DNA from: Aphrocallistes beatrix
Taxonomy: Eukaryota > Porifera > Hexactinellida > Sceptrulophora > Aphrocallistidae
DNA: 64,000 nucleotides
Assembly: GCA_963281255.1 (NCBI GenBank)
Contig: OY725488.1
Coordinates: 7,165,524 to 7,229,523 of the forward strand
Direction of reading: 5' to 3'
This document shows positions 933 through 64,000 of this stretch, one piece after another. The position numbers and the translations under genes were made by a program. The notes under the pieces are model-generated. The model worked only from the letters and a program-made list of their open reading frames with translations. It did no database searches and was not told where the DNA came from. Positions within the stretch are counted from its first letter, which is position 1. Each line of letters opens with the position of its first letter.

Positions 933-3900
933 ATTTATTATTTTAGCCAATTGCTATACTATACGTCACTTACAGTAGTTTGATTCTCTAACAATTCACC
1001 TGTACTAATTACTGATTAATTATCATTTTAGTGAACATTATACTAAGTACGTAACACGAGAATATTTTATTAATTCTAGTGTTAAGCTATGTCAAACGTA
1101 TTGGGCACTTTAAATTCAGTGGGGTGATATACGTGTTGTAATACAACTAGCCTATTTTACAGACGCCATTTCGATTCTGAATTGACGTGGTACCTCCCAT
1201 GTAAAATTAGTCAAAATACACAGATGGATCTACGTTAGCCCATAATATTATACCAGACTTCATACGTCTAGCTCAACGTGTTGCTAATTAAGTAACTCGA
1301 CCCAGTGAGATGTAGAGTTTTGCCAGATAAATCCACACCCATATTTCATATCCTATTCCCCTTTTCTGGATTGAATATTGTTCTGGAGTATCTTTTTCAG
1401 AAATGTACTTATAATATAATAAGGAGAAGTGTATTATTTCAAATAATTTGCATAACATATTGATATCGAGTAACTATAGATAGCAGAACTAACCAGACAG
1501 ACACCGCCCTTTCATAAATTTAATTTGTTTATGGATGATCTACTATTTCTCTAAAAAGTTTAAATAATCCAACTAAACAAGAAAAGTACAAACCTAAGGT
1601 CAACAAGTGCATTAAATCATATTTTAAAACATGCTTCAGGGGACAGGGAACTCTGCTACCAAAGGTTCAGCTAGTAAACAATCATGTGTAGGATTAGTGA
1701 ACTCTTAACATGCACTTTTGGTGCTAAATAAGACTAGTGTTCAACGTCAGTTCATTATAATAAATTATCAGAAATATGATATGACCTAACTGCCCGAAGT
1801 ACTGATTATTTATTCTAGATAAACACCAGAAAGGACGTGTATTTTGCCTGAGTAATATCGACCTAGCAAATAACAGAGGAAACTTTAACCCCTTCCTCTT
1901 TATCATAATGATACAATATTTTAAATTGTTTTGTCAGCTAATTGTAAAGCAAGTAGGGCTGTTGAGTTCATCTGCAGTCATCCTAACCTGAAAACAACCT
2001 TCATAGTAAATACAGCTATCATATTCTCGTGACTAGTTTCTATCTATAGCAAGATAACCCACCTCCGTGCTTGTGTATCGCATATTCCAATAAATAATGA
2101 TTAGGAGCTATTTTAGTATTTATTAATACAGTGTCAACTTCTGAAATACGGTATCCGTATTTCGGTTCAGTGCACCTCTAATAGCTGTGCCACCTACGGA
2201 CACTTTGTGTCCGCTTAAATCACCATTTGGGTGATTCACTCATATCAAATAATCTTGCTCGTTCAAAAATTAACATCGGTCAATTTCTCAACCCGAACCC
2301 GATTCCAACTCTGTTTTGAACATACAAGTAATAACAATATTCTTCAAAATTTGATATTCAGAATCTATCACGGATGATAAAACCTTTGAGAGCTAGTATC
2401 TAACATATTTTTGAATTTTTTACTTGATTATTAATCTATTGTAAACAGAACAAAAATTTTACAATCTACATGCCGATTTTCATATTCCTACGACTTGCCA
2501 GTTCATCAATCAACTCGAGCAAACAAACAAAAAATCCTAGCGTTTTAATATATAAGATATATTCCTATCTCGCACCCTATCACTAAAAGGTATTAAAAGT
2601 ATTTTAGCGGATTTATTATCATAATTAAGGATTCCAATTCCGGGATATTTTTCGGTGGAAGGTATTTGATAAATTTATTACTCAATCTAATATAAGTCTC
2701 TTACCAAAGCGTGAAAGGACAATTCTAATCAATTTGGTAAATTACACAATGGAATTCCCTTCATTGGAGTGTGGTTAACAAATAGTATACTGTACATATA
2801 ACTTTTAATTTATTAGTGAATTATTTGCAGAATAATAATGTTATTATACATCTGTATTCCTGTCAGGTAATTTTGACCGTTGTTTGGAGTTTACTGAGAT
2901 CCTATTTCCTATTATTATATTTTAAATATTTACTGGTATGATTATAAACTGATTAAATTTCCTAAACTGTCCAGTTGGGGAATTATTGTTTAAATACCAT
3001 TAGTGACCATCAAGCCACAGCCAAATAGATCTAGAACTTAGGTTGTTTAAAAACTCCTTAAATTAACAACAAATACTCTGAGAGGGTTTTACAAGCCAAG
3101 TAGTGCAGCTCCTGTAAGTGACTTGACACGTGAGATATGAATAATCGTAATACATTGGGAACTACTCACTTTATGAAAACTCATAATATATTCACACTCT
3201 TATACAAATTTTCATAAAAGGTGTGAAAATATGAATATATATACATATGTTTTGAAAATTTGTTTTGTTGTTTTTGCTGAGGTGTGAAAATTTCGCCTAT
3301 TAGATATTTTAACTTGTCTGTAGACTCACCGTACCATTGGATGTGGTGTGGCTGGTAGGGCCATAGCCTCACCACTTTTTATGAGCTTCCGATGGCCCTG
3401 CCTACATGATACCAATTTTCATATTCCTACAACCAGGTTCTTCAATCGATTCTAACAAACAAGACAAAAACCTACCATTATAATATATAAGATTTCTTAA
3501 TTACTTCTTTTCTAAACATCGGAATTATATTCTGTTCCACTGTATCTATTTTCACTGGTGTAACCAGGATTTTCTGTAGTGGAGAGACTACAAATCTTGT
3601 CCAAGATGATTGCACGAATATAACACATACTAATTATGAAATGTAACATATTCTATACGTATATTTCAAATCAATTAATAAGTTCAAATATTTGAATATA
3701 TTGAATATTAAATGTTATCTGTAATTACCACGTAGGCAACGCTGCCTACTTACAAGATAACAGTCTCATTCATACCATTTCAAAGTTGACTAGGAAACGC
3801 AACTAAAACAAATACATAGAATGACCTACACATACAGTAAAGCAATGTATGATATTAAGATGATTTAGGGATTTTCACAATAGTTTCTAGTCTAGTAAAA

Positions 3901-4590
3901 TGCTTGATCTGCACTCGCTGAGCAAAATATTCGTTCGTAACAATTTTTTCAGTGCGAATACGTTGTATTATTTAGAAACATCACGTCAATAAACGAGTTC
4001 GTGGGTGCCTACTCCATTAATCCCTATAGTCCTGGAAGAGGCAGTGATATCGTGTCACCTAGGATAGCCCCAGGAGCACCAGCCCTCCCCAATTAAGTGT
4101 AAAAGAAGTCAGATAACTACGTAGATCCAATTACAATTCCTCAACCAAGTGCAGTGCTCCTCAAACTCTAATTGAGGATATCCCGATGTATTAAGAAATT
4201 ACATTTCGCAGCTACTTCGGCCACTCTAGCCACTTACTGGTGGTGAACTTCAGATCTGTCGACCGGCATTTTTACTAGTGTTTAATAAGGCTTTATATCT
4301 CAACGGATGATATAGGGTAGTCACTATGTGTGTTGTAAATCTGATTTTCAGAGGTTTTATGTGAAAATCTCATGAGGTGCTAACACACTGTACGTATGCA
4401 TACATAAACATATTTTAACACTTTTTGGTTAATATTGCCATAAGTTGAATCCAATTTTGGCCCAGAGGATGGTTATAAAGTGAAGAGTGAATTTTTTTAA
4501 TTTTTGTCGATTAGAACAAACAATAAGAAAATTTAGAACATACAAATAATTGCATTTAAGTGTATTTAAGATATAAATCAAGAAATAAGG
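933..4590. other. AT-rich spacer with repeat-element remnants
   Basis: No gene is recognisable on either strand; all frames are short. At 2197-2213 there is a perfect palindrome CGGACACTTTGTGTCCG, followed at 2218-2237 by a small hairpin (AATCACC...GGTGATT). At 2465-2560 and 3400-3495 there are two diverged copies of a repeat end found again at 8655-8800, 58405-58600 and 61860-61985. Its signature words are CGACTTGCCA and CCTAGCGTTTTAATATATAA. The stretch at about 3340-3410 has short inverted repeats around GGGCCAT and ATGGCCC. The remainder shows no visible structure. Confidence 0.6.
2170..2565. mobile_element. Short non-autonomous repeat element (palindrome plus CGACTTGCCA end)
   Basis: The left part holds the palindrome CGGACACTTTGTGTCCG. 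The right part holds the words ATGCCGATTTTCATATTCC, CGACTTGCCAGTTCATCAAT and AAAATCCTAGCGTTTTAATA. The same words occur in the 57-62.7 kb fold-back region, so this looks like a dispersed family member with no coding capacity. The borders are approximate and the target-site duplication was not identified. Confidence 0.45.
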
Positions 4591-7500
4591 TTATCTCGAC
4601 ATTCCAAGTTGGGTGGGAGACGATTTTCTAACTCGTTTAGAAGTGCCATTAAGCAGTTGCTGTTTTCAATGATATGAATGTTCTTTCGAAGTGTCTAGAT
4701 AAGAGATAACGAACAAAGAATTTGTAAAATGAAAAATTCTGAATCGTAGCCAGGGAGCTGTACTCACCATCTTTGCTCGATCGATCGTTTCGCGGAGTTG
4801 TTGTATGTGGTTAGTCCTTTCAGCAGCTTGTGATCTGATGTCGTCCACCTACGAAATAGCAAAGACATGATGAAGTGTTAATTGAATTACTAGTAAATAG
4901 ACAATAATATTATATATTTTAATAATACCTTTTTTTTTAATTTGGAATTTTCGTGGCATAGTTGTTGTACGCAAGACTGTGGGTCGAGATAGCTCCTCAC
5001 TTCTTCTGCACCATTTCTTGCACTATCACACTCGGCTCTCAATATGTGTATCTCTTTCTGCAACATTTTGATCTGATCCTGATAGTCGTTGTTCTCGGCT
5101 GTGAGTTCTATCTTCCTGTTGTGAAGAATGTGGATTTGTTGTTGCCGAGCTAACTCTTTACTGGCATAGCTATTTACGTTCTTATCCAATTCTTGTTTTC
5201 TCATCTCATTAAAACGAGCATTAATTTTTAAAGTTTGTGTCGTCGCAAATAAATCTTCCAGTTGTTCTCGAAGTTGTTCACTAGAGAATACAATTTTAAT
5301 ACATAATTAACTTTCAATCTAGTTACCAGGGTGTTATAAGCTGCGAACAGACAAAGTAAGCAGGCTCGAAACACATTATCTATGTGCCTCTATTCACGAA
5401 TTTATCTCCAACATACTATCAACTAGCCACGAAACCTCGTGTGAGAACCATTATCAGAAATTAATTAGCCTAATGTATGTCTCCCACACATGTGAAATTG
5501 TAAGATCAAAAGGACTCGCAACGAGTCTATGTAGGAATAGTTAAGGTCTGTGATGTAAGCATCGTTAAATGACAAATAAATAATAAAGCATGAACTTTTA
5601 GACATATGGTATCGGGTTGTCTGTCAGCTGACTCGGTTTATGGTGCGGTATTATATTATACAGCGAGAGGAGTTAATAGACTGAATGACCTAATGGCCGA
5701 ATTGCTATAATTGTATAAAATCAATATGCTTACTTGTCTCTGTTGAGTGCATCCATAGCCTCGCGCGTAATATTTCTTGTCAACACATTCGCTGTCAATT
5801 CATCCAACTGAGTAATGCTCTCCTTCATAGCTTCGAGTTGCTCGGGGATATTAATGCACACGGGATCGGAGGGTATTATCAACTAAAGAAAGCATTCAAT
5901 ATAAATTATTGTATAACATGGGGTCTTAATGCTCTACTAGTCAATTACTAAATATAGAATTCTAATTAACTATGATATCTCAAAGTGAAATGTTATCTGG
6001 CTATGTAAATAGTGAATGGGTGTGGACAGCTTGATGTCTGTATTTTAATTCCACTATGATCAGAATCGAAAGCATTTACTAAAAGTTACATGGGCGTTTT
6101 CCAAGTCTCGTGGGGCCAGATGTGAAAATAGATTATCAATTAACTTACTATCTTGCTATCATAATATTAACGTAGGTGAAGTTTTCTTATCTTTTAAGAT
6201 AATCGTGCATTTAAATCAAACGCCTGCTTCCTTATAACTCGATTAATTAGTTATGCAATGTCGTATATTTCGCGCTTATGTCTCCACTATATAGATTGGC
6301 TACGAATAAAGTATCACTTATTCTAGAGAGATAAATGTAAAACGACTACTAGTACCTGCATCGTACGATCAACTCATCGACGATAATTTTATTATTTGAG
6401 TCTATCGGAGCTAATTTACGCATGTATATATCAAAATACTTATTTGCGTGTGAATCATAACAGTCTGAGACCTGATTACACAAATTAACTTTTTATCTCT
6501 TTATTGTAGGATACGAGAAAGCGTAACGAGACTCTTCACCATGGTAATAAATTATATTAGTTCCCAATTCAACTCATATATACTTGCGAAATCTCCTGGA
6601 TCTTGCAATAGACCTGAGCACATTGTGTTATGTCTGCTATTAACATTTACTAGCAAACCTACTTGAACTCCAATTTTTACAAATTATCATTTTCATCTAA
6701 CATCATCATGTACGTTCATAGCTATTAGCGCTTATAATGTCATTCTTGCTTAAATCAAATTGCACATAGACAAATAGAGTCTGCAGAGGCGAAATGGCTG
6801 CCTACGTTGATAATGTATTAGCTAGGCTAGATGTTACTTACTGGATTATATCTTAGGATTATGCTGTTAATTTCTGAGTGGAGGTCACCAACTTTGTCCA
6901 TATACTGATCAAACTCTTCTGTTTTTGTTCTAATTACATTAATGGCTCCAATTCGATGATCATCCAGTTCTTTGCTACAAGCATAAGAAGTATGTAAAAT
7001 ATTTTGGAGAGGTGAATCTACATAATAGCGAATTAAGCTATTCATTCCACAATGAAGTGGGAACTCACGTTTTTTTCATTCTATCTTGTTCAGTTGATTC
7101 CAGATTGCTGCTAACATCACGGAGTTCACCCTTTGTCCAAGCGAGCTCCCGTTCCAGTTGTTCCAATTTATTTGATGCATCGCGTCGTTGCTCTATCAAT
7201 TCCTGATAATCTCTTTTTTCATTGTTTAATTGCTCCATTAAACTCTATGGAAATAATATATTGTAAATTTTATATCAACAGCACAGATGCAGCTAACCAG
7301 GTTGTGGCGGTTATTATATCTACGAGAAGATCATCGCGTAGGATACATAGTACGGTTCATCAGATAAAAACATGTTTTATCCTGTACTTAGGTCCATATA
7401 TATTTGCATATCTATTCTAGTCAAAGACGGATAGATTTATGATATTCAATTTTGCATACGTATCTATGCGTATCTATGCATGTCATGACTTAAGCATCTA

Positions 7501-8649: not shown

Positions 8650-8803
8650 CTATACATTAAAACGCTAGGATTTTTAAAATTTTTTGTTCGAATTAATTGA
8701 AGAGCTGACAAGTCGTAGAGATATGAAAATTGGCATGTGGGTGTAAATGATGAGTCTACGATGAAGTTCGAATATCTAATAAGAAATTTTCACACCGAAA
8801 AGT
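8650..8803. mobile_element. Repeat-element fragment (CTAGGATTTTT / CGTAGAGAT family)
   Basis: It begins ACATTAAAACGCTAGGATTT and continues with AGCTGACAAGTCGTAGAGAT and GAAAATTGGCATGTGGGTGT. This is the same word order, in inverted orientation, as 2465-2560, and is nearly the same as 58405-58600. It lies between the two coiled-coil genes, or inside an intron if they are one gene. It has no coding content. Confidence 0.55.
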
Positions 8804-33052: not shown

Positions 33053-33685
33053 TTAGGGTTGGTTTAGCATACAGCCGTTCAAATCACGCCTCTGGTTGAG
33101 AGCTATGATGATCAAGTCAGCGATCCACCAGATGGGGGCCATGAAGGTAGCGATTAAAATCACTATGACTAGGAATATTATTATTATTATAATTGTACAG
33201 CCACATAATGTTCCTACAGTGTTATCATCGCCGCCACTGGAACAAGCAGCTTTAGTAGCACAGCTGGCGCAAGACCAGCAGCATGGTAAAATTAATAAGG
33301 CTAGGAAAAGGAAAAGTTGTCCTCCTGCCAGGTCGTTTCTCCCGATATAGAAGTTGGCAGCCCCCACCCCTCCAACGAACGCTTGCAGCAGCACTGCAGT
33401 CAGCCACTCCCTTGCCGTACTCTCGCACTGGCCCAGGTTAGTGTAGGTGAAGCACCGGTCATCCAGAGTGCAAGCATCTTCAGACACAGAAGCACCAGTA
33501 TTCATCTCAAAACAGTTTCCGCTCCCCCCGCATGCGCACTGACCATTATTACATTGTACATATTGGGTCGGGTTGGTGGGGTTCAGTGAGGTGCGTGTAC
33601 AATCCTGGGCTACACTACAATTTTGAGAATAAGCCAGCACTGTGAATACACTCAGCAATGCAAGAACGAGAATGATACGACTCAT
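33053..33685 (-). CDS. Secreted/membrane TM2-domain protein, copy 1
   Basis: 210 aa from an ATG at 33685, chosen because it begins a clear signal peptide (MSRIILVLALLSVFTVLAYS). An upstream in-frame ATG would add 33 unlikely residues. A Cys-rich extracellular part follows (about 20-85, ten or more cysteines), then a TM2 domain: WLTAVLLQAFVGGVGAANFY, the hydrophobic LFLFLALLILPCC, and a second hydrophobic region ending WWIADLIIIAL. TM2D proteins usually carry a DRF motif in the loop; here the place reads AANF. The insert between the membrane segments is Cys/Gly-rich and is where the two copies differ most. The function of TM2 proteins is poorly defined (links to Notch and phagocytosis in flies), so none is assigned. 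Confidence 0.85.
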   Translation of the reverse strand: MSRIILVLALLSVFTVLAYSQNCSVAQDCTRTSLNPTNPTQYVQCNNGQCACGGSGNCFEMNTGASVSEDACTLDDRCFTYTNLGQCESTAREWLTAVLLQAFVGGVGAANFYIGRNDLAGGQLFLFLALLILPCCWSCASCATKAACSSGGDDNTVGTLCGCTIIIIIIFLVIVILIATFMAPIWWIADLIIIALNQRRDLNGCMLNQP

Positions 33686-33813
33686 TTCAGATAGTCTACA
33701 GATAATACCGATCAGATAGTACAGTAGCAGAGTAGTACAATTGTTGCAAAAATGCTTTTCGTTCTGATTGTCTCCTATATACAACTACCACATGCTGGAT
33801 ACTAAATACTACG

Positions 33814-35261: not shown

Positions 35262-35894
35262 TTAGGGTTGGTTTAGCATACAGCCGTTCAAATCACGCCT
35301 CTGGTTGAGAGCTATGATGATCAAGTCAGCGATCCACCAGATGGGGGCCATGAAGGTAGCGATTAAAATCACTATGACTAGGAATATTATTATTATTATG
35401 ACTGAACAGCCACATAATTTTCCTGCAATGCCATCGTCACCGCCACAGGAACAAGCAACAGTGACAGCACAGCTGGCGCAGCACAAGAAGAATGGTAAAA
35501 TTAATAAGGCTAGGAAAAGGAAAAGCTGTCCTCCTGCCAGGTCGTTTCTCCCGATATAGAAGTTGGCAGCACCCACCCCTCCAACGAACGCTTGCAGCAG
35601 CACTGCAGTCAGCCACTCCCTTGCCGTACTCTCGCACTGGCCCAGGTTAGTGTAGATAAAGCACCGGTCATCCAGAGTGCAAGCATCTTCAGACACAGAA
35701 GCACCAGTATTCATCTCAAAACAGTTTCCGCTCCCCCCGCATGCGCACTGACCATTATTACATTGTACATATTGGGTCGGGTTGGTGGGGTTCAGTGGGG
35801 TGCGTGTACAATCTTGGGCTTCACTACAATTTTGAGAATAAGCCAGCACTGTGAATACACTCAGCAATGCAAGAACGAGAATGAAACGACTCAT
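35262..35894 (-). CDS. Secreted/membrane TM2-domain protein, copy 2
   Basis: 210 aa, starting MSRFILVLALLSVFTVLAYS. It differs from copy 1 at few positions in the signal peptide and Cys-rich part (for example QNCSEAQDCTRTPLN versus QNCSVAQDCTRTSLN). A cluster of replacements lies in the loop between the membrane segments (PFFLCCASCAVTVACSCGGD versus PCCWSCASCATKAACSSGGD). Both copies keep an open frame and the same start and stop, so both may be functional. It lies in duplication unit 2. As in copy 1, the TM2 loop lacks DRF. Confidence 0.85.
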   Translation of the reverse strand: MSRFILVLALLSVFTVLAYSQNCSEAQDCTRTPLNPTNPTQYVQCNNGQCACGGSGNCFEMNTGASVSEDACTLDDRCFIYTNLGQCESTAREWLTAVLLQAFVGGVGAANFYIGRNDLAGGQLFLFLALLILPFFLCCASCAVTVACSCGGDDGIAGKLCGCSVIIIIIFLVIVILIATFMAPIWWIADLIIIALNQRRDLNGCMLNQP

Positions 35895-36580
35895 TTCAGA
35901 TAGTCTACAGATACTACTTAGAAAATAGGAGCAGAGTAATACAATAGTCTTGCAAAAATGCTTTCACGTTCTGATTGTCTCCTATATACAACTACCACAT
36001 GCTGGATACTAAATACTACGTACATGTCGAGCTAACAAAACGCTACCCATGAGCCTAAATATATGTTCTGACTGAACAACTGTGAACTTAGATATTCTTG
36101 GTACTATATTAATAATCGTCAATTAGTACGTATTGATATCTAAAATATGTACATTTAAATCCAATAATTATATTAAGCATAGGCGGATCTTAGGGGGGGA
36201 GACTAGGGAGGACATGTCCCCAAAGTTGTGTTTTGCCTTCCTCCCCAAAATGTTCAACATGCGTAAAGTCATGGGTGGATCTTTGAGGGACAAAGTTGTG
36301 TTTGACCCCCAAATATTATGAAATGTTACCGCCTAGCGCCGCTCCTGATATTAAGGCCTGTCTTATATCTAGAAATGTAAATCAATCCAAGAAGCGAACA
36401 TTCATGTTTGTTGATTTATTAAGTAAAATTCAAAAATTCTATAATCAAGCACACAGCAAAATTTACATAAAGAGCCAGGGTTAAAAATTCAGTATGCAAT
36501 ACCCGTACAAACAAAATACACTTCTATTTACATTGTAGTATGTCAACACATGTACAAATGAATGAACCAGTGTAGGGCCT
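35895..36580. other. Intergenic between TM2 copy 2 and the Shc-like gene
   Basis: 36023-36294 is sequence not found in duplication unit 1, and 36295-36580 is shared with 34115-34404. An AATAAA on the minus strand near 36418-36413 lies about 165 bp past the Shc-like stop and is a plausible poly(A) signal. The promoter of TM2 copy 2 should be within about 35895-36020. Confidence 0.5.
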
Positions 36581-55006: not shown

Positions 55007-55746
55007 AGAGTGGACCATGGGTCACTTACAGTGACCCATGACCCATCTGACCCATTGCATGTGTGACCCAGTGACCCAGTGACCCAGTGACCCAGTACGT
55101 GACCCAGTGACCCAGTATGACCCAGTGACCCAGTACGTGACCCAGTGACCCAGTGACCCAGTGACCCAGTGACCCAGTGACCCAGTATGTGACCCAGTGA
55201 CCCAGTACGTGACCCAGTGACCCAGTATGACCCAGTGACCCAGTATGACCCAGTGACCCAGTGACCCAGTACGTGACCCAGTGACCCAGTATGTGACCCA
55301 GTGACCCAGTGACCCAGTGACCCAGTACGTGACCCAATGACCCAGTATGTGACCCAGTGACCCAGTATGTGACCCAGTGACCCAGTGACCCAGCACGGTG
55401 ACCCAGTGTAATACTCAATCACATAAATTTGTTGTGGTTACCTACAAACACTTTAATTATAAAAAGTTTTTGAATCGTTTGTTTGCGACTATACAATAGT
55501 ATAGTCGCCAACTATAAAAATGAGCGGCTATATATTATATATTATATATATAGGTCACTGGGTCAAGGGGTTGTGACCCATGACCCATCGACTTATGTAG
55601 CCCATGTGACCCATGACCCTGTAATCCAGTGACCCAGTGACTGGGTCACTGGGTCAATAGGTCGTGACCCATGACCCAACTGACCCAGCGATTTCTGTGA
55701 CCCAAGTGACCCATGACCCATGACCCAGTGACCCATGGTCCACTCT
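55007..55746. mobile_element. Inverted-repeat element filled with GTGACCCA repeats
   Basis: It is bounded by AGAGTGGACCATGGGTCAC (55007-55025) and its exact reverse complement GTGACCCATGGTCCACTCT (55728-55746). The interior at 55026-55400 is a near-perfect array of GTGACCCA joined as GTGACCCAGTGACCCAGTAC or ...GTAT. A second, less regular block at 55560-55745 contains both orientations (GACCCAGTGACTGGGTC at about 55629-55645). The block between (55430-55555) is unrelated and AT-rich. Several frames read through the array because it lacks stops; none is a gene. Confidence 0.8.
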
Positions 55747-56220: not shown

Positions 56221-56880
56221 ATGATTCCAACCGAAGAAATTTCTCGAGTAGCTTCATTTTCACTCGTATCCTATCTGGTTATGACCATATTCTATTATTA
56301 TTAAGTACTACTGAGCATATATGTTCAATTTTCGGATTGTGTTAGGAATATTTTCACGAGGTGACAGTAGAAATACAAATACGTACAAATAAATCGTGTG
56401 AAATTTTGTATAACACGAAGCTAGATGTCTTTTTTGTTGTTAGTAGTAGTTTAGTATTCCTTCTACCGATTCCAATCAACTTGTTCCCAATCGTCCTGAG
56501 GAGAGCATATCTAAGTGTTCCATACAGAAGATGGATAATCGGATACTCTGGTTACTCCCGATTCAGGTTAGTTTGTATTATTTTAACAGTTTTCTTCTTC
56601 CCTACTCAGCACTTTAAATTTCTGATGGAATTACCATTTTTATTCTTTGATTGTTGCGTTTACGTGAATGCGAGTAAGAAGTTATATCTTCTGTTGAAAG
56701 GAATGAGCGAAGAAGCCAAGTGACATTCCACGACACAAGAATATAAAAGGAAGAAAAGAGAAGCAAAGGTATTTGGCATCTTAAGATCCATCTACTTATT
56801 CACCTTGACATTCTGCTTGATAATAGTTAGATGTATTCAATCAGTAACCTGATTAATATCACAAAGACTCTTTGTAACAC
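56221..56880 (+). pseudogene. Broken copy of an unknown multi-membrane-segment protein
   Basis: Alignable by eye with 63175-63990. The ATG at 56221 starts MIPTEEISRVASFSLVSYLV and stops after about 27 codons. Homology resumes at about 56390 (INLFPIVLRRAYLSVPYR, WIIGYSGYSRFRLV) and runs to GMSEEAK, where a TGA (56721-56723) replaces the Trp codon of the other copy. Past that the sequence still resembles the other copy (CACAAGAATATAAA). With at least two stops and missing middle sequence it is a pseudogene. Confidence 0.75.
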
Positions 56881-57009
56881 AACAGTGCAGTCCACTTCCG
56901 AAAACTGGGGCACCTCGGGACCAGAGCTGGGCGCCCCGGTTTTCGAGTGATTAGATGTACTGTATCAAGTTAGCATAGCTCGTGACAAAAACAAAGCATT
57001 TTAAGAGAA
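56881..57009. other. Short GC-rich inverted repeat between relic and fold-back
   Basis: CCGAAAACTGGGGCACC and GGCGCCCCGGTTTTCGAG (56897-56951) form an imperfect hairpin. Related words CCGGTTTTCG and TCCGGTTTTCGGAAGTATAC occur at 62873-62911, on the other side of the fold-back. These may be ends of another miniature element split or flanked by it. Confidence 0.45.
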
Positions 57010-57595
57010 ACAAGCGCGCTTCGCTTGCTTGCGCTGCGCGGCTGGCGGACACTTTGTGTCCGCAGGAGGCTCCCTTCGGTCGCCTGGAGGTGACATTGGT
57101 TAATTAAACGGGATATATCATCTCTAAATATGTCCATCTTATTTTAAAATCAATATCACTCGAAAAAACACCAAATTTGTCAAATTTTAAATTATTGATG
57201 AGTAATGATGACGTCATAGCAAAGTGATGAGTCATCATTTTTTGATGATAGTTGCATCATATGTGAGACGTGTTAGGATACAGATTCGATTAAAATTTCA
57301 GCCTTCTATCTCCTATAATGGCTGAGTTATGCCCGAATAACTGTGTTGCTTAACTTTTTAAAATGTGACAATGACGTCATAATTCCATGATGAGTCGACA
57401 TTTTGGTCTGAGCTCAGAACTTACTGGAGCCATAGCCAAAAGACTCCCACATGCCAAAAATCAGCCTTCTGCGCCCGGCAGTTTCTTCAATCAATTCGTT
57501 ACAGAGATATATACATATATATACATATATATATATATAAATATACAATAATCGAGTTTTAATAGTAAGGATATATATATATATATATCATATAT

Positions 57596-58403
57596 ACAAG
57601 CGCGCTTCGCTTGCTTGCGATTCGCGGCTTGCGGACACTGTGTGTCTGCAGAGTCGCCCTGCGGGCGCCTGAAGTTACTCAATCTAACCTATTTTAGGAA
57701 TTTTTTTCCTTGATATAAATATTGTAAACAAAAGTTAACGAATAATTTCTCATATGGATCCGGAAATATAATATTCGAAATCTACAGTACTAAAAACCCC
57801 ATGTCAACCGTTGGAAGCTAGTCTCTAGCCTATTTTTGAGATTTGTTTACTTTATGTATCTAATGTAAACAAAAGTAACAATTAATTATCATATTTGTTC
57901 GATAATATGATATTCGAAATCTACACCCCTGAAAACCCCATATCAACCGTTTAAAGTTTAAACGGTTGATATGGGGTTTTCAGGGGTGTAGATTTCGAAT
58001 ATCATATTTTCAGATCTATATGATAAATTATTTGTTTACTTTTGTTTACAATAGATACATAAAGTAAACAAATTACAAAAATAGGCTAGAGAATAGCTTC
58101 CAACGGTTGACATGGGGTTTTTAGGGGTGTAGAATTTGAATATCATATTTTCAGATCGATATGATAAATTATTTGTTTACTTTTGTTTACATTAGATACA
58201 TAAAGTAAACAAATCTCAATGATATGCTAGAAACATGATAGTTCAATTTCACCTTACTTAATGTGGCCATTAATTAGTGAGAGTAATCAATATTAAATTA
58301 TTGAGTAACAAATTATAGAGTAACCCTAGGCGCCCGCAAGCCGATTCTACGGACATGCAGTGTCTGTAAACCGCGCAGCGCAAGCAAGCGAAACGCCGCT
58401 TGT
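57596..58403. mobile_element. Inner inverted unit with GC-rich ends and a long central palindrome
   Basis: The left end is ACAAGCGCGCTTCGCTTGCT and the right end, inverted, ACAAGCGGCGTTTCGCTTGC. The middle contains a near-perfect palindrome (57904-58008) centred on CCGTTTAAAGTTTAAACGG at 57956. Next to it, further copies of the same sentence occur in direct and inverted order (CCCATGTCAACCGTTGGAAG at about 57802; CTTCCAACGGTTGACATGGG at about 58098). It could be two inverted copies of one element inserted head to head. Confidence 0.65.
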
Positions 58404-58934
58404 CTTATATATTAAAATGCTAGGATTTTTGTTTTTTTGTTTTTTTGTTGTTTGTTTGTCCGAATTGATTGAAGAATTGGCAAGTCGTAGAGATACGAAA
58501 ATTGGCATGTAGGTGTCAAATGATGAATCTAGGATTAAGTTCGAAGATCTAAGCGAAATGTTCACACCTCGCCGAGATAGGTGACAAAATGTGCTGACCG
58601 ATCAAATTCGATTATTTTATAATGCTAATACATTGGTTAAAATAGTAGTGACTTATGCATACTATCAAAAGGACTATTTGTGATTGAAATTCATTGGTTT
58701 ATGTGAACCAATCAATTATCAGCCTTTTATAATGCCATTCACACGATTCTATTTCATATAAATGATTGAATACTGCTATTTTGAGTCTATAATTTGATTG
58801 TTAACAACAACAAGTTTTAACACCTTCAGAATATTAATACAAAATACATACTCCCATATACATCACAGGTCACCGTCAATAATAACGAAAATCCAATATA
58901 AGAATCGGAAATCTCAAAACTGTATAACTACACT

Positions 58935-60030
58935 CTATGTCATTATGTGGAGAATGGGCATTTTGGGTTACTATTTTCAATCCCCCCACTATGAGGGGGT
59001 GCTCAGTGGCATTATGTGGAAAATAGGTATTTTGGGTTACTCTTTTCAATCCCCCCACTATGAGGGGGTGCTCAGTGGCATTATGTGGAAAATAGGTATT
59101 TTGGGTCACTCTTTTGAATCCCCCCACTATGAGGGGGTGCTCAGAAGCATTATGTGGAGAATGGGCATTTTGGGTTACTCTTTTCAATCCCCTCACCAGG
59201 CGAGGGTGCTCAGTGGCATTATGTAGAGAATGGGCATTTTGGGTTACTCTATTCAATCCCCTCACCAGGAGAGGGTGCTCAGTGGCATTCTGTAGAGAAT
59301 GGGCATTTCGGGTTACTCTTTTCAATCCCCACTCCAGGAGAAGGTGCTCAGTGGCATTATGTGGAGAATGGGCATTTGGGTTACTCTTTTCAATCCCCCC
59401 ACTATGAGGGGGTGCTCAGTGGCATTATGTGGAGAGTGGGCATTTTGGGTTACTCTTTTCAATCCCCACTCCAGGAGAAGGTGCTCAGTGGTATTATGTG
59501 GAGAATGGGCATTTTGGCATACTCTTTTCAATCCCCCACCAGGAGAGGGTGCTCAGTGGCATTATGTGGAAAATAGGCATTTTGGGTTACTCTTTTCAAT
59601 CCCCCCTCTATGAGGGGGTGCTCAGTGGTATTATGTGGAGAATGGGCATTTTGGGTTTCTCTTTTCAATCCTCACCACCAGGAGAGGGTGCTCAGTGGCA
59701 TTATGTGGAGAATGGGCATTTTAGGTTGCTCTAGATTCAATCCCTCCACCATGATGGGGTGTTCGGTGGCATTATGTGGAAATAGGCATTTTGGGTTACT
59801 TTTCTCAATCCCTCCACCAGGAGAGGGTCCTCAGTGGCATTATGTGGAGAATGGGCATTTTGGGTTACTCTTTTCAATCCCCCCACCAGGAGAGGGTGCT
59901 CAGAGGCATTATGCGGAGATATGGCATTTTCGGTTGCTATTTTCAATCCCCACCTGGAGGGTGGTGCTCAGTGGCATTATGTGGAGAATTGGCATTTTGG
60001 CCAACTCCTTTCAATCTTCCACCAATTGAG
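58935..60030. repeat. ~68-bp satellite, about 16 units
   Basis: The unit contains GCATTATGTGGAGAATGGGC, ATTTTGGGTTACTCTTTTCA, ATCCCCCCACTATGAGGGGG and TGCTCAGTG. Spacing is 67-71 bp. Two sub-types alternate at one place, CCCCCCACTATGAGGGGG and CCCTCACCAGGAGAGGG, both able to form a short hairpin with a 6-base loop, so compensating changes keep the stem. Unit lengths vary, so long frames in several phases on both strands are incidental. Confidence 0.9.
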
Positions 60031-60359
60031 GATTCTATGTATGTTGTATTTTTTGGACGAAATACGTTTTGTTCTACCCATTTTCAATTTTTTCTCCATA
60101 ATGGGATACTTTTTTCCATTATGTTTGCAAGCTGTATTTTTATTAACCTTTATCGACAGATTCTTCCCTTTTTCATTATGTTTCGAATATTCCTTTTAGT
60201 TACCTTTTTATATTTTTAACTCTATGTTTCCCTTTATTCCTAGAGTCATCGCTGTGCATGTATTCCATTTTTGTAAAATTTTCTGTGTTTCTTTATCATT
60301 TGCATTTGTTCCCACGCTCCGCTCCTTCGATATCGAGTCAGTTTGTTACTTTGGAATAC

Positions 60360-61245
60360 TGAAAATTTGTTGACCTGCTTGGAATTCGAACCTCCGCCAC
60401 TTCGTTATCGGCTCAGTGCGCTAACCACTCGACCATGAAGTCCCACTTCTTTAGAATGTCCTAAAATTATATTTATATTTGTTAACTGAAAATTTGTTGA
60501 CTTGCTTGGGATTCGAACCCGCGTCACTTTGTTATCGACTCAGTGCGCTAACCACTCGGCCATAAAGTCCCACATCTTTAAAATGTTCTAAACTTATATT
60601 TATGTTTGTTACTTTGGAATACTGAAAAATTGTTGACTTGCTTGGGATTCGAACTTGCGTCACTTTGTTATCGACTCAGTGCGCTAACCATTCGGTCATG
60701 AACTCCTACGTCTTTAAAATGTTCTAAAATTATATTTATGTTTGTTACTATGGAATAGTGAAAATTTGTTGACTTGCTTGGGATTCGAACCCACGTCACT
60801 TTGTTATAGACTCAGTGCGCTAACCACTCGACCATGAAGTCCAACGTCATTAAAATGTTCTAAAATTATATTTATGTTTGTTAACTGAAAATTTGTTGAC
60901 TTGCTTGGGATTCGAACCCACGTCACTTTGTTATAGACTCAGTCTGCTAACCACTCGACCATGAAGTCCCACGTCTTTAAAATAATCTAAAATTATATTT
61001 ATGTTTGTTAACTGAAAATTTGTTGACTTGCTTGGGATTCGAACCCACGTCACTTTGTTATAGACTCAGTCTGCTACCACTCGACCATGAAGTCCCACGT
61101 CTTTAAAATAATCTAAAATTATATTTATGTTTGTTAACTGAAAATTTGTTGACTTGCTTGGGATTCGAACCTGCGCCACTTTGTTATTGACTCAGTGCGC
61201 TAACCACTTGGCCATGAAGTCCCATGTCTTTAAAATGTTCTAAAA
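60360..61245 (-). repeat. Seven tandem tRNA-like (SINE-type) units, 125-137 bp each
   Basis: On the minus strand each unit reads GACTTCATGGTCGAGTGGTT, AGCGCACTGAGTCGATAAC, then GGGTTCGAATCCCAAGCAAG, TC. This contains a Pol III A box (TGGTCGAGTGG) and B box (GGTTCGAATCC) at tRNA spacing, followed within about 10 nt by a TTTT terminator. B boxes lie at about 60383, 60509, 60646, 60780, 60907, 61033 and 61158. The cloverleaf is imperfect: acceptor 5 of 7 pairs, D and anticodon stems with mismatches. The anticodon position reads GAT in several units and TAT in others, with C at position 33 in the former. I therefore call them tRNA-derived repeats rather than functional tRNA genes. Confidence 0.75.
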
Positions 61246-62154
61246 TTATATTTACAAGCGCGCTTCGCTTGCTTGCGCTGCGCGGCTTGCGGACACTGTG
61301 TGTCCGCAGATTTACCCAATGGGAGCTTGGGGATATTAGAGAAACAATACGTCGCTTTCTTACTAAGTACGCTGGATTGTCATTTGTCTATGGTTACATT
61401 TAATAAATCAGAACTGTAGCAGAAATTTTGTTTCGTGATAAATATAATTTACTTCGTATTAAGCCAACTAATCCTGAATGTAAGCTCAATTTGAATACAC
61501 AAAGTTCACATTGCTAAAGATTATTATACGTACTTAAATAATCAATTCCAGTCCATGTCGTTAAAAGTTATTTTATGATCGAATTGATTGATCGTAGCAT
61601 ATAACACACTTTAATTGTTGTTAACAATCAAATTATAGACTCAAAATAGCAGTATTCAATCATTTATATGAAATAGAATCGTGTGAATGGCATTATAAAA
61701 GGCTGATAATTGATTGGTTCACATAAACCAATGAATTTCAATCACAAATAGTTATTTTGATTGTATGCATAAGTCAATACTATTTTATTCCAATGTATTT
61801 GCATTATAAAATAATTGAATTTGATTGGTCAGCACATTTTGTTACCTATCTCGGCGAGGTGTGAACATTTCGCTTAGATCTTCGAACTTAATCCTAGATT
61901 CATCATTTGACACCTACATGCCAATTTTCGTATCTCTACGACTTGCCAATTCTTCAATCAATTCGGACAAACAAAAAAAATCTGTGTAAACTAGCATCCT
62001 CAATCATTATGCTATAGTAATACCACTCCAAAAAGTGACACGGCTCTTACATACCCGCCGAACCTGTTGTTTCGCCCTTGTATATTACATTCGTATGTAC
62101 ATACTAAGCAGTCAGTCTATTTTATAAGTATCCTTACTATTAAAACTCGATTAA

Positions 62155-62161
62155 TGTATAT

Positions 62162-62200
<39 letters not shown>

Positions 62201-62212
62201 TATATATATATA
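62155..62212. repeat. (TTTA)n / (TA)n microsatellite
   Basis: About eleven TTTA units followed by a TA run, at the inner side of the right outer arm. The matching position on the left arm (57508-57540) holds a (TA)n/(CATA)n run instead. Confidence 0.95.
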
Positions 62213-62711
62213 TATCTGTAACGAATTGATTGAAGAAACTGCCGGTCATAGAAAGCTAATTTTTGGCATGTGGGAGTCTTTTGGCTATGGCTCCAGTAAG
62301 TTCTGAGCTCAGACCAAAATGTCGACTCATCATGGAATTATGACGTCATTGTCACATTTTTAAAAGTTAAGCAACACAGTTATTCGGGCATAACTCAGCC
62401 ATTATAGGAGATAGAAGGCTGAAATTTTAATAGAATCTGCATACTAACATACCTCACATATGATGCAACTATCATCAAAAAATGATGACTCATCACTTTG
62501 CTATGACGTCATCATTACTCATCAAAATTTTAAAAATTGACAAATTTGGTGTTTTTTCGAGTGATATCGATTTTAAAACTAAGATGGACATATTTAGAGA
62601 TGATATATCCCGTTTAATTAACCAATGTCACCTCCAGGCGACCGAAGGGAGCCTCAGGCGGACACGAAGTGTCCGCCAGCCGCGCAGCGCAAGCAAGCGA
62701 AGCGCGCTTGT

Positions 62712-63177
62712 TACATTGATGACAGTAAAAAATTGTACTTTGACTCTAATTCATCGTGGCACCCACACCCATAAATGCTGTGTAACAACTCTTCATACAT
62801 TAAGCATATACAAATGGAATGTTTTAAACTAAAAACATAATTTTGCAAAGAAAAATATAACCCAAACTCATCCCGGTTTTCGAACAAGTGCTCCGGTTTT
62901 CGGAAGTATACTGTAGCTGTTTCCTTCGAAATACATTGTACAATCTTAATTAATAACATGTTGTGTGTAGTGATGAAGAGACATCATGAAAAAATAATCA
63001 GTGCTTTCAATTCCATAGCTTATAATGCACATAGAAAGTAACTACTCGAAAGAAGGACGTAGTGGTGTTGTCAACATATAAAGTGTACATGCTTCCAATA
63101 CACTACTTCCCATTGTAGACGTTCATGGCAGATAAATAAGAGAAAAGAAGAAATAAAAGAAGAAATTCTACAACAAC
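62712..63177. other. Intergenic, upstream of the membrane-protein gene
   Basis: The region at 62918-63010 is related to 56075-56170 upstream of the broken copy. At 62870-62911 there is a CCGGTTTTCG inverted-repeat remnant. The promoter of the following gene would be within this stretch. Confidence 0.45.
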
Positions 63178-64000
63178 ATGGATTCAACATTTAATGATCG
63201 AATTGACAAAGTCGCTTCATTCGCACTCATTCCTTATCTGATCATTACGGGCTTCACGATACCATACTTCGTACACCAGAAAATACAGATTTCACAGAGG
63301 ATAAAGAACATACCAGCAACAACCATATTTTCAACCGATCTCAGCAAAGTGAAAAAGAATCTCAGGATTCAATCATTGATTTATAATTTCATCATAATCA
63401 TCTCCAGCTAGGCTCTTGGATGCTTATTAATCACGGTAGCTACTATATGCATCTCTTTCGATTATTGTCAAGCAAATCATCTCAAAGTGAGGGTAGTAAA
63501 CACAAATACAAATAAATCTTGCAACTTGCATAGTCAAGCGAGGAATTTTGTGTTCGCCAAGACTAGTGGCAACTTAGTAATCCTTCTACCGATTCTAGTG
63601 AACTTGTTCCCAATCGTACTGAGGAGAGCTTATCTGAGTGTTCCATACAGAATATGGATAATCGGATACTCTGGCTACTTCCTGTTCAGGCTAGTTTACC
63701 TAATTCTCTCAGCTTACTTCATCGTTACTCGATTCTTCTATTCCACATTGGAATTACCATTTCTAGTCTTCGATTTTTATGTCTCTCTAAAAGTGATTAA
63801 GAAGTTCTATCTTCTACTGAAAGGAATGTGCGAAGAAGCTAAATGGCACTCTACGCCACAAGAATATAAAGAGAAACAAAGAATATCAAAAACATTCGCA
63901 ATCCTCCAATCACTAACGTTGTTTACATTTATCTTCTGCTTGATATTGATTGCGGCAGAATCGATTCAGGAGTGGACTTATATAACTAACGGTTACTGCT
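63178..64000 (+). CDS. Unknown multi-membrane-segment protein, one in-frame TAG, runs off the window
   Basis: From ATG 63178 the frame is open to the window end (274 codons) except for a single TAG at 63409-63411. After the TAG the same frame continues with GCLLITVATICISF. At least five hydrophobic segments are visible: SFALIPYLIITGFTI, LIYNFIIIISS, LVILLPILVNLFPIVL, FRLVYLILSAYFIV and FAILQSLTLFTFIFCLILI. Charged stretches lie between them (LLLKGMCEEAKWHS, PQEYKEKQRISK). This suggests a receptor- or channel-like membrane protein, but I recognise no family. The TAG may be a recent nonsense mutation, an assembly error, or part of a short intron (none obvious). A decayed relative lies at 56221-56880. 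Confidence 0.55.

Follow-up and report, generated by a model that had tools for sequence, protein, structure and literature searches.

A composite Helitron-like element carrying two tandem arrays in Aphrocallistes beatrix, probably grown by two successive 3'-end bypasses

The Helitron Helraiser, which has been studied experimentally, has a 3' hairpin that acts as a terminator and can be bypassed, giving new 3' ends further on (PMC4778049). Canonical Helitrons use an AT target, and Helitrons of Fusarium oxysporum have non-canonical termini that were confirmed by pre-insertion sites (PMC5148889). Cg_HINE Helentrons of Crassostrea gigas carry satellite-like arrays, exceptionally two array types per element (PMC7492417), and stepwise capture, in which pieces accumulate in steps, is reported by title for maize Helitrons (PMC3288121). 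Here we set these systems, as described in the cited parts of each source, beside a structure of 5.7 kb in the sponge Aphrocallistes beatrix, located near the end of a 64,000-nucleotide stretch of contig OY725488.1 (C1:7165524-7229523; hereafter, the window). The original prediction, made from the letters of the window, described this structure as a nested fold-back with two tandem arrays as cargo. Based on searches of the genome (100.5 Mb, 28 contigs), we consider it very probable that the structure instead holds a non-autonomous Helitron-like composite, built up through two 3'-end bypasses in succession, and next to it an independent Helitron insertion.

The elements described below resemble Helitron1 and Helraiser in their 5' TC, a hairpin near the 3' end, and apparent 3'-end bypass; unlike Helraiser as presented in that source, they have CTTG in place of CTAG or CTRR, the bypasses would have occurred two in a row with the second ending on the 3' end of another Helitron, and the cargo consists of tandem arrays rather than gene parts (PMC4778049). 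As with Cg_HINE, non-autonomous rolling-circle elements appear to spread tandem arrays; however, the cited account of Cg_HINE places the arrays at the center of the families and suggests a TT site, whereas here the cargo would have been taken once, by bypass, and the site is A/T (PMC7492417; a slash marks the joint throughout). The maize captures differ in that they concern gene fragments in a plant (PMC3288121). The F. oxysporum Helitrons likewise have non-canonical termini, but the cited parts describe asymmetric terminal inverted repeats and other end sequences (PMC5148889). The same composite structure was not found in the open-licence literature searched.

Element families A, B and FB

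The predicted nested inverted repeats around two tandem arrays are present. The outer pair (57009-57579 versus 62123-62712) aligns with 92% identity over 590 columns including gaps, or 96.1% over 489 columns when its two elements, A_L and A_R, are compared without the microsatellite part. The inner pair (58448-58810 versus 61615-61978) aligns with 97% identity, and the enclosed arrays comprise 15.6 copies of the 69-bp satellite unit and 6.9 copies of the ~127-bp unit. A third, shorter inverted pair with a palindromic center, which the original prediction did not name, lies at 57597-58402. Copies of the arms elsewhere in the window, also predicted, were recovered as partial solo matches at ~2381-2557, 3401-3492, and 8680-8796. 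The window contains 37 stop-to-stop frames of at least 150 aa, three of them inside the structure, all in or across the satellite.

We aligned the parts of the structure by BLAST against 88 fetched loci, 68 of which were listed. The outer arm is an element of ~560 bp (A) whose copies are mostly single and one-directional, commonly with several following one another; the inner arm corresponds to half of an element of ~760 bp (B), which has its near-complete form in the window at 61255-61980. A first look yielded 3936 candidate matches for A and 2599 for B genome-wide, and the best 40 of each were scored. A and B share head and tail: read as Helitrons, they start with TCCTTA or TCTTATAT and finish with GCGCGCTTG. 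Among 60 copy rows, which were chosen by end patterns including TC and CTTG and represent 57 distinct 3' ends (three row pairs share one), the element ends are asymmetric and without terminal inverted repeats, A precedes the 5' end in 58 rows, and T follows CTTG in all 60. The 5' TC was also read, free of this pattern choice, from the insertion site itself in locus L043 and in the insert of locus X631, described below.

The A/T site was read in four kinds of event: B in B, the X631 insert, the 3' side of the window unit, and A_R. In L043 and L053, B lies inside B at ATATAAA/TGATTG without duplication, and these nested copies, the X631 insert, and A_R all leave zero extra bases. A target duplication of ~7 bp had been suspected from overlapping BLAST ranges in L043 and L053, but the letters did not bear it out. 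L043 and L053 lie on different contigs, B is nested in B at an identical site in both, and a target site matching it is present in L066; the nested pairs may in turn have been duplicated by copying. In A_L, A_R, and B, the final ~55 nt form two hairpins (z -3.2 to -3.9). In the minimum-energy fold of these tails, the nearer hairpin lies 2-4 nt and the stronger one ~33 nt from the end, compared with ~10-12 nt in Helitron1. Helitron Rep domains gave 106 matches in the genome, five of them in stop-free frames longer than 700 aa (the longest 1970 aa). Elements with long open Rep frames lie at C11:2.037 Mb, C7:0.521 Mb, and C2:3.996 and 4.506 Mb. Because of the A/T site, the lack of duplication, the 3' hairpins, and the Rep domains in the genome, we treat A and B as non-autonomous Helitron-like elements with a CTTG 3' end, for which an autonomous Helitron of this genome would have supplied the enzyme. 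Insertion between T and T, as in Helentrons and HINEs, was not observed; the site is A/T. An origin from short or long interspersed nuclear elements, considered for the asymmetric ends and a simple-repeat stretch near one end, was rejected on the nested copies without target duplication and on the A/T site.

The third inverted pair consists of the 3' half of an FB-family element with 140-bp repeats (57597..57956, minus strand, 3' end at 57597) and the 3' half of a second FB-family element (57957..58402, plus strand, CTTG at 58399-58402). These halves are joined tail to tail at the palindrome, with both 3' ends outward, and the palindrome center was found at two places only, the window and C1:6.314 Mb. 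The 3' hairpins of the right half are weak (z -1.01).

The cargo arrays and the proposed first bypass

The captured cargo (58811..61254) comprises sp1 (58811-58940), a satellite with ~16 units of 69 bp (58941-60016), the spacer sp2 (60017-60357), and an array with ~7 units of 127 bp (60358-61254), all on the minus strand. Among the matches listed, and counted by eye, satellite and array keep this arrangement and orientation at about 19 places. The 127-bp array had been called tRNA-like, a term that fits in part, given box A and box B look-alikes (six each in seven units) with a T run behind them, but not the recognition of any tRNA gene: ARAGORN found no tRNA, and Rfam returned only four matches of 13-15 nt to a T-arm-like stretch, at 10-11 bits versus a gathering score of 47. 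Judging from these motifs, the units could be small RNA polymerase III transcription units or a decayed tRNA-derived array. At C1:7599791-7643270 (~43 kb), many satellite matches of ~75-77% identity are found among those listed, which suggests that a sequence related to the 69-bp satellite has undergone large-scale expansion in this region.

The capturing B element (61255..61980, minus strand) holds the right inner arm (61615-61978), lacks ~23 bp at its 5' terminus, and retains at 61255-61258 the 3' end that would have been bypassed. The array meets the head of B at TTATATTTA/CAAGCG, or one base off, at five places including the window; the other four of nine junction matches have three mismatches and different flanks, and they were taken as unrelated insertions. 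In locus X1975, the array runs on at this junction with T.

Evidence for the insertion that followed comes from X631 (C1:6.313-6.318 Mb), a second copy that lies 0.9 Mb from the window structure on the same contig. In X631, a 2,891-bp insert of B, array, and sp1 (3175-6065) is found inside a B element of opposite direction, and both halves of this target B are kept, the second at 6066-6426. On its own strand, the insert starts A/TCTTATATATT and ends GGTGTTAAAACTTG/T (A/TC at the 5' border, CTTG/T at the 3' border), and joining the target halves gives AACAACAA/TTAAAGTG, the sequence of unbroken B in L043 and L053. The window has the same product of B and captured array (58811..61980, minus strand, CTTG at 58811-58814) inside a target B that is broken at AACAACAA/T, with the 5' half of this target (58403..58810, plus strand) forming the left inner arm. 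When a query of 862 bases (upstream sequence plus sp1) was used, only the window and C1:6.3147 Mb started exactly at sp1 among 11 matches. In X348 and X1975, the sequence continues through the same CTTG, as CTTG/TAAATCAT; identity of the captured parts is 99.2% (sp1) and 98.2% (sp2) to X348 and 96.1% (sp1) and 94.1% (sp2) to X1975. The captured CTTG end has no hairpin (z 0.94). Because the junction of this captured end with target B was found at two places only (≤3 mismatches), capture and insertion into target B appear to have been one event.

In the proposed first step, B would have come to lie beside the satellite and the tRNA-like array, in the orientation in which copying beyond its 3' end runs into the array; B and array are adjacent at five loci. 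Rep/helicase would then have run past the 3' hairpin of B, copied 2.1-2.4 kb of array (2.13 kb in X631, 2.44 kb in the window), and halted where CTTG happened to precede T; the product would have inserted at A/T inside a B element of opposite direction, giving the inner inverted repeat. For X631, both borders of this insertion and its empty site were read directly.

The proposed second bypass and insertion into repeat E

The composite unit (57011..61980, minus strand) lies within an interspersed repeat, E, that runs from 56888 to 57010, resumes at 61981..62130, and continues at 62711..62880. Repeat E is similar to a miniature inverted-repeat transposable element (MITE), with imperfect terminal inverted repeats of ~33 bp at ~56881-56913 and 62888-62921, and its left part is broken at AAA/T. 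To obtain empty sites, the outer flanks were joined with the stretch between the capturing B, here B(-), and A_R, and the best 40 of 139 candidates were listed: 30 span both joints, eight span the right joint only, and two are the window's own halves. Both later segments of E are covered by these joined-flank matches. The empty site in L091 reads GCATTTTAAGAGAAA/TAATATTGGG/TCTGTG; the left border is A/T exactly at the 3' end of A_L (57011..57571, minus strand, 561 bp, TC...CTTG), which supplies the 3' end of the composite at 57011. At the right border, the window lacks 10 host bases relative to L091, and L092 agrees. The empty-site string was found at 28 other places with ≤3 mismatches, whereas a backwards control gave none; empty sites, which the original prediction had proposed as a check, thus exist for 57011-61980. 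Because these sites lack the unit, 57011-61980 most likely entered repeat E as one piece.

What the window has in common with X631 is A_L, followed by the FB pair, the 5' half of target B, and the captured piece together with its B, in the same order over 4.6 kb, with identities of 98.6% for A without the microsatellite, 100% for sp1, and 97.7% for sp2. The window does not contain the 3' half of target B, and homology to X631 ends inside the 5' tip of B(-). Since the right border corresponds to this 5' tip and the left border to the 3' end of A_L, the arrangement fits a copy that started at B(-) and ended at A_L, from a donor similar to X631. In this second step, the same B would have been reused: copying would have passed three CTTG ends, half of target B, and the inverted FB pair before stopping at the 3' end of the next element in the same direction, A_L, and the 4.97-kb product would have inserted into repeat E at A/T. 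A later deletion of about 33 bp would have removed the 5' border of the unit, in B near 61980, together with the 10 bp of host. The 3' border and the empty site were read directly, and border logic points to the direction from donor to daughter and to the path of copying.

An alternative is that Helitrons accumulated in place, that ~0.4 kb was later deleted, comprising the 5' end of B(-) along with the 3' half of target B and 10 bp of E, and that X631 is a derived segmental duplicate. Helitrons in this genome do insert beside each other's ends, a single deletion would account for the right border, and both loci lie on the same contig, 0.9 Mb apart, with an A-type 5' tip to the right of each. 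However, the block shared with X631 is bounded by two outward 3' ends, borders that a Helitron event does not give, and a duplication would have to end exactly at the 3' terminus of A_L; bypass also explains the missing 3' half of target B without a large deletion. We therefore regard accumulation in place as improbable.

Several observations weigh against growth by two bypasses or against parts of it. The 3' tetranucleotide is CTTG, and not the CTRR of canonical Helitron1, and no autonomous element was linked to the TC...CTTG ends, albeit the ends of the Rep-carrying elements were not read. Beyond B, X348 has AT-rich sequence where X1975 has array, which leaves the insertion of B into the array half documented. 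The window unit lacks a clean A/TC at its 5' border. X631 has an A-like 5' tip of ~43 bp (86%, plus strand) just right of target B; in L090, which covers the right side of X631, this tip lies at ~6434-6475 of the joined stretch and is followed by unrelated sequence, and the ~43-bp match to the tip of the right outer arm was the only one in 1.7 kb read beyond the X631 copy. This A-type tip to the right of both loci is unexplained and lowers our confidence, although the clean site of A_R in E favors a separate insertion. The window's sp2 is slightly nearer X348 (98.2%) than X631 (97.7%). With one other composite copy only, the order of donor and daughter would rest on border logic. Finally, the tree of B copies is poorly resolved (17 of 26 inner branches open).

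Origin of the inverted repeats and significance

A_R (62131..62710, plus strand, 580 bp), the right outer arm, inserted cleanly into repeat E at AAGTA/TTACATTG; 150 bp separate it from the composite unit to its left. Joined flanks cross this site in 38 of 40 listed places, and the other two are the window's own halves. This separate insertion of an A element in the opposite direction created the outer inverted repeat. Among 47 other A copies (45 rows listed), 14 are nearer A_L than A_R is, and 17 are nearer A_R than A_L is; since retrieval was by good matches to A_L or to the shared head, the first count is biased. The inner arms, target B and inserted B, each place the other 31st of 33, in a set with 28 rows fetched as matches to target B, the left arm. 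Leaning as they do on copies fetched with the left arms, these ranks speak against inverted duplication of the arms. Because the arms are not each other's nearest copies and have separate insertion sites, both inverted repeats are best understood as by-products of insertions in opposite directions.

The nested hairpin appearance is thus best described, from the sequence comparisons, as a pile-up of short non-autonomous Helitron-like elements and not as a fold-back element. Fold-back elements with inner tandem repeats exist, and two concentric long inverted repeats would be expected of such an element, or of a MITE-like one, if long inverted repeats formed its termini and arrays its cargo. Nevertheless, the arms in the fetched loci are mostly single asymmetric elements with their own borders and are not each other's nearest copies, the right outer arm is located in host repeat sequence, 150 bp away from the inserted unit, and the unit and A_R have separate empty sites. 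The unit ends at 57011 and ~61980, so the long inverted repeats are not the ends of the mobile unit, and a true fold-back element is highly improbable. An assembly artefact is just as improbable: inverted repeats are prone to misjoins, and the structure is known from the assembly alone, but X631 keeps the same order over 4.6 kb and the borders coincide with element ends or a matching empty site, although the same error at both loci is conceivable.

The original prediction of a non-autonomous mobile structure survives insofar as most of the structure seems to have moved as a unit; its inverted repeats, however, are not the termini of that unit, and the borders given as 57010..62711 are replaced by element borders at 57011-61980 and 62131-62710. 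Recurrence of the full 5.7 kb with the same borders was not found in the genome, where the only other copy, at C1 6.313-6.318 Mb, has the left border in common with the window but a different right side. We rejected both a distinct fold-back class, given that the arms are separate Helitron copies facing each other, and a local amplification product.

Other features were noted around the structure. A direct repeat (56441-56822 and 63564-63945, 73-83%) flanks the whole of it and is probably an older local duplication of host sequence; considered as a source of an empty site, this tandem duplication of the flanks does not include the insertion site and gave none. A GTGACCCA-type tandem repeat at 55029-55737 adjoins the structure. 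Elsewhere in the window, the open frames 33053-33784 and 35262-35963 are closely alike and probably encode tandem paralogous membrane proteins.

The mechanism, 3'-end bypass with stepwise capture, is already known, and the structure is explained by known Helitron behavior; new are the families, their CTTG termini, and the unusually complete record of two successive bypasses. The likely source, the intermediate, the later product, and the empty sites (in the target element, the host repeat, and at the neighboring insertion) all survive in one genome, and the two bypasses can therefore be traced base by base, which could be of use in testing how Helitrons choose their stopping point. The locus is also a caution: where inverted repeats are nested around arrays, Helitrons stacked by chance can be the cause, and not a fold-back element. 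It further illustrates one way in which satellite arrays move. A bolder reading, which we consider rather unlikely, is that a Helitron lineage in this genome stops at little more than CTTG followed by T, such that one 5' end can snowball into growing composites. If this were true, each round could end at the next CTTG or the next Helitron 3' end, stacking satellites, tRNA-like arrays, Helitrons, and inverted pairs with two 3' ends, and it would provide a general route for the scattering of arrays in small animal-like genomes.

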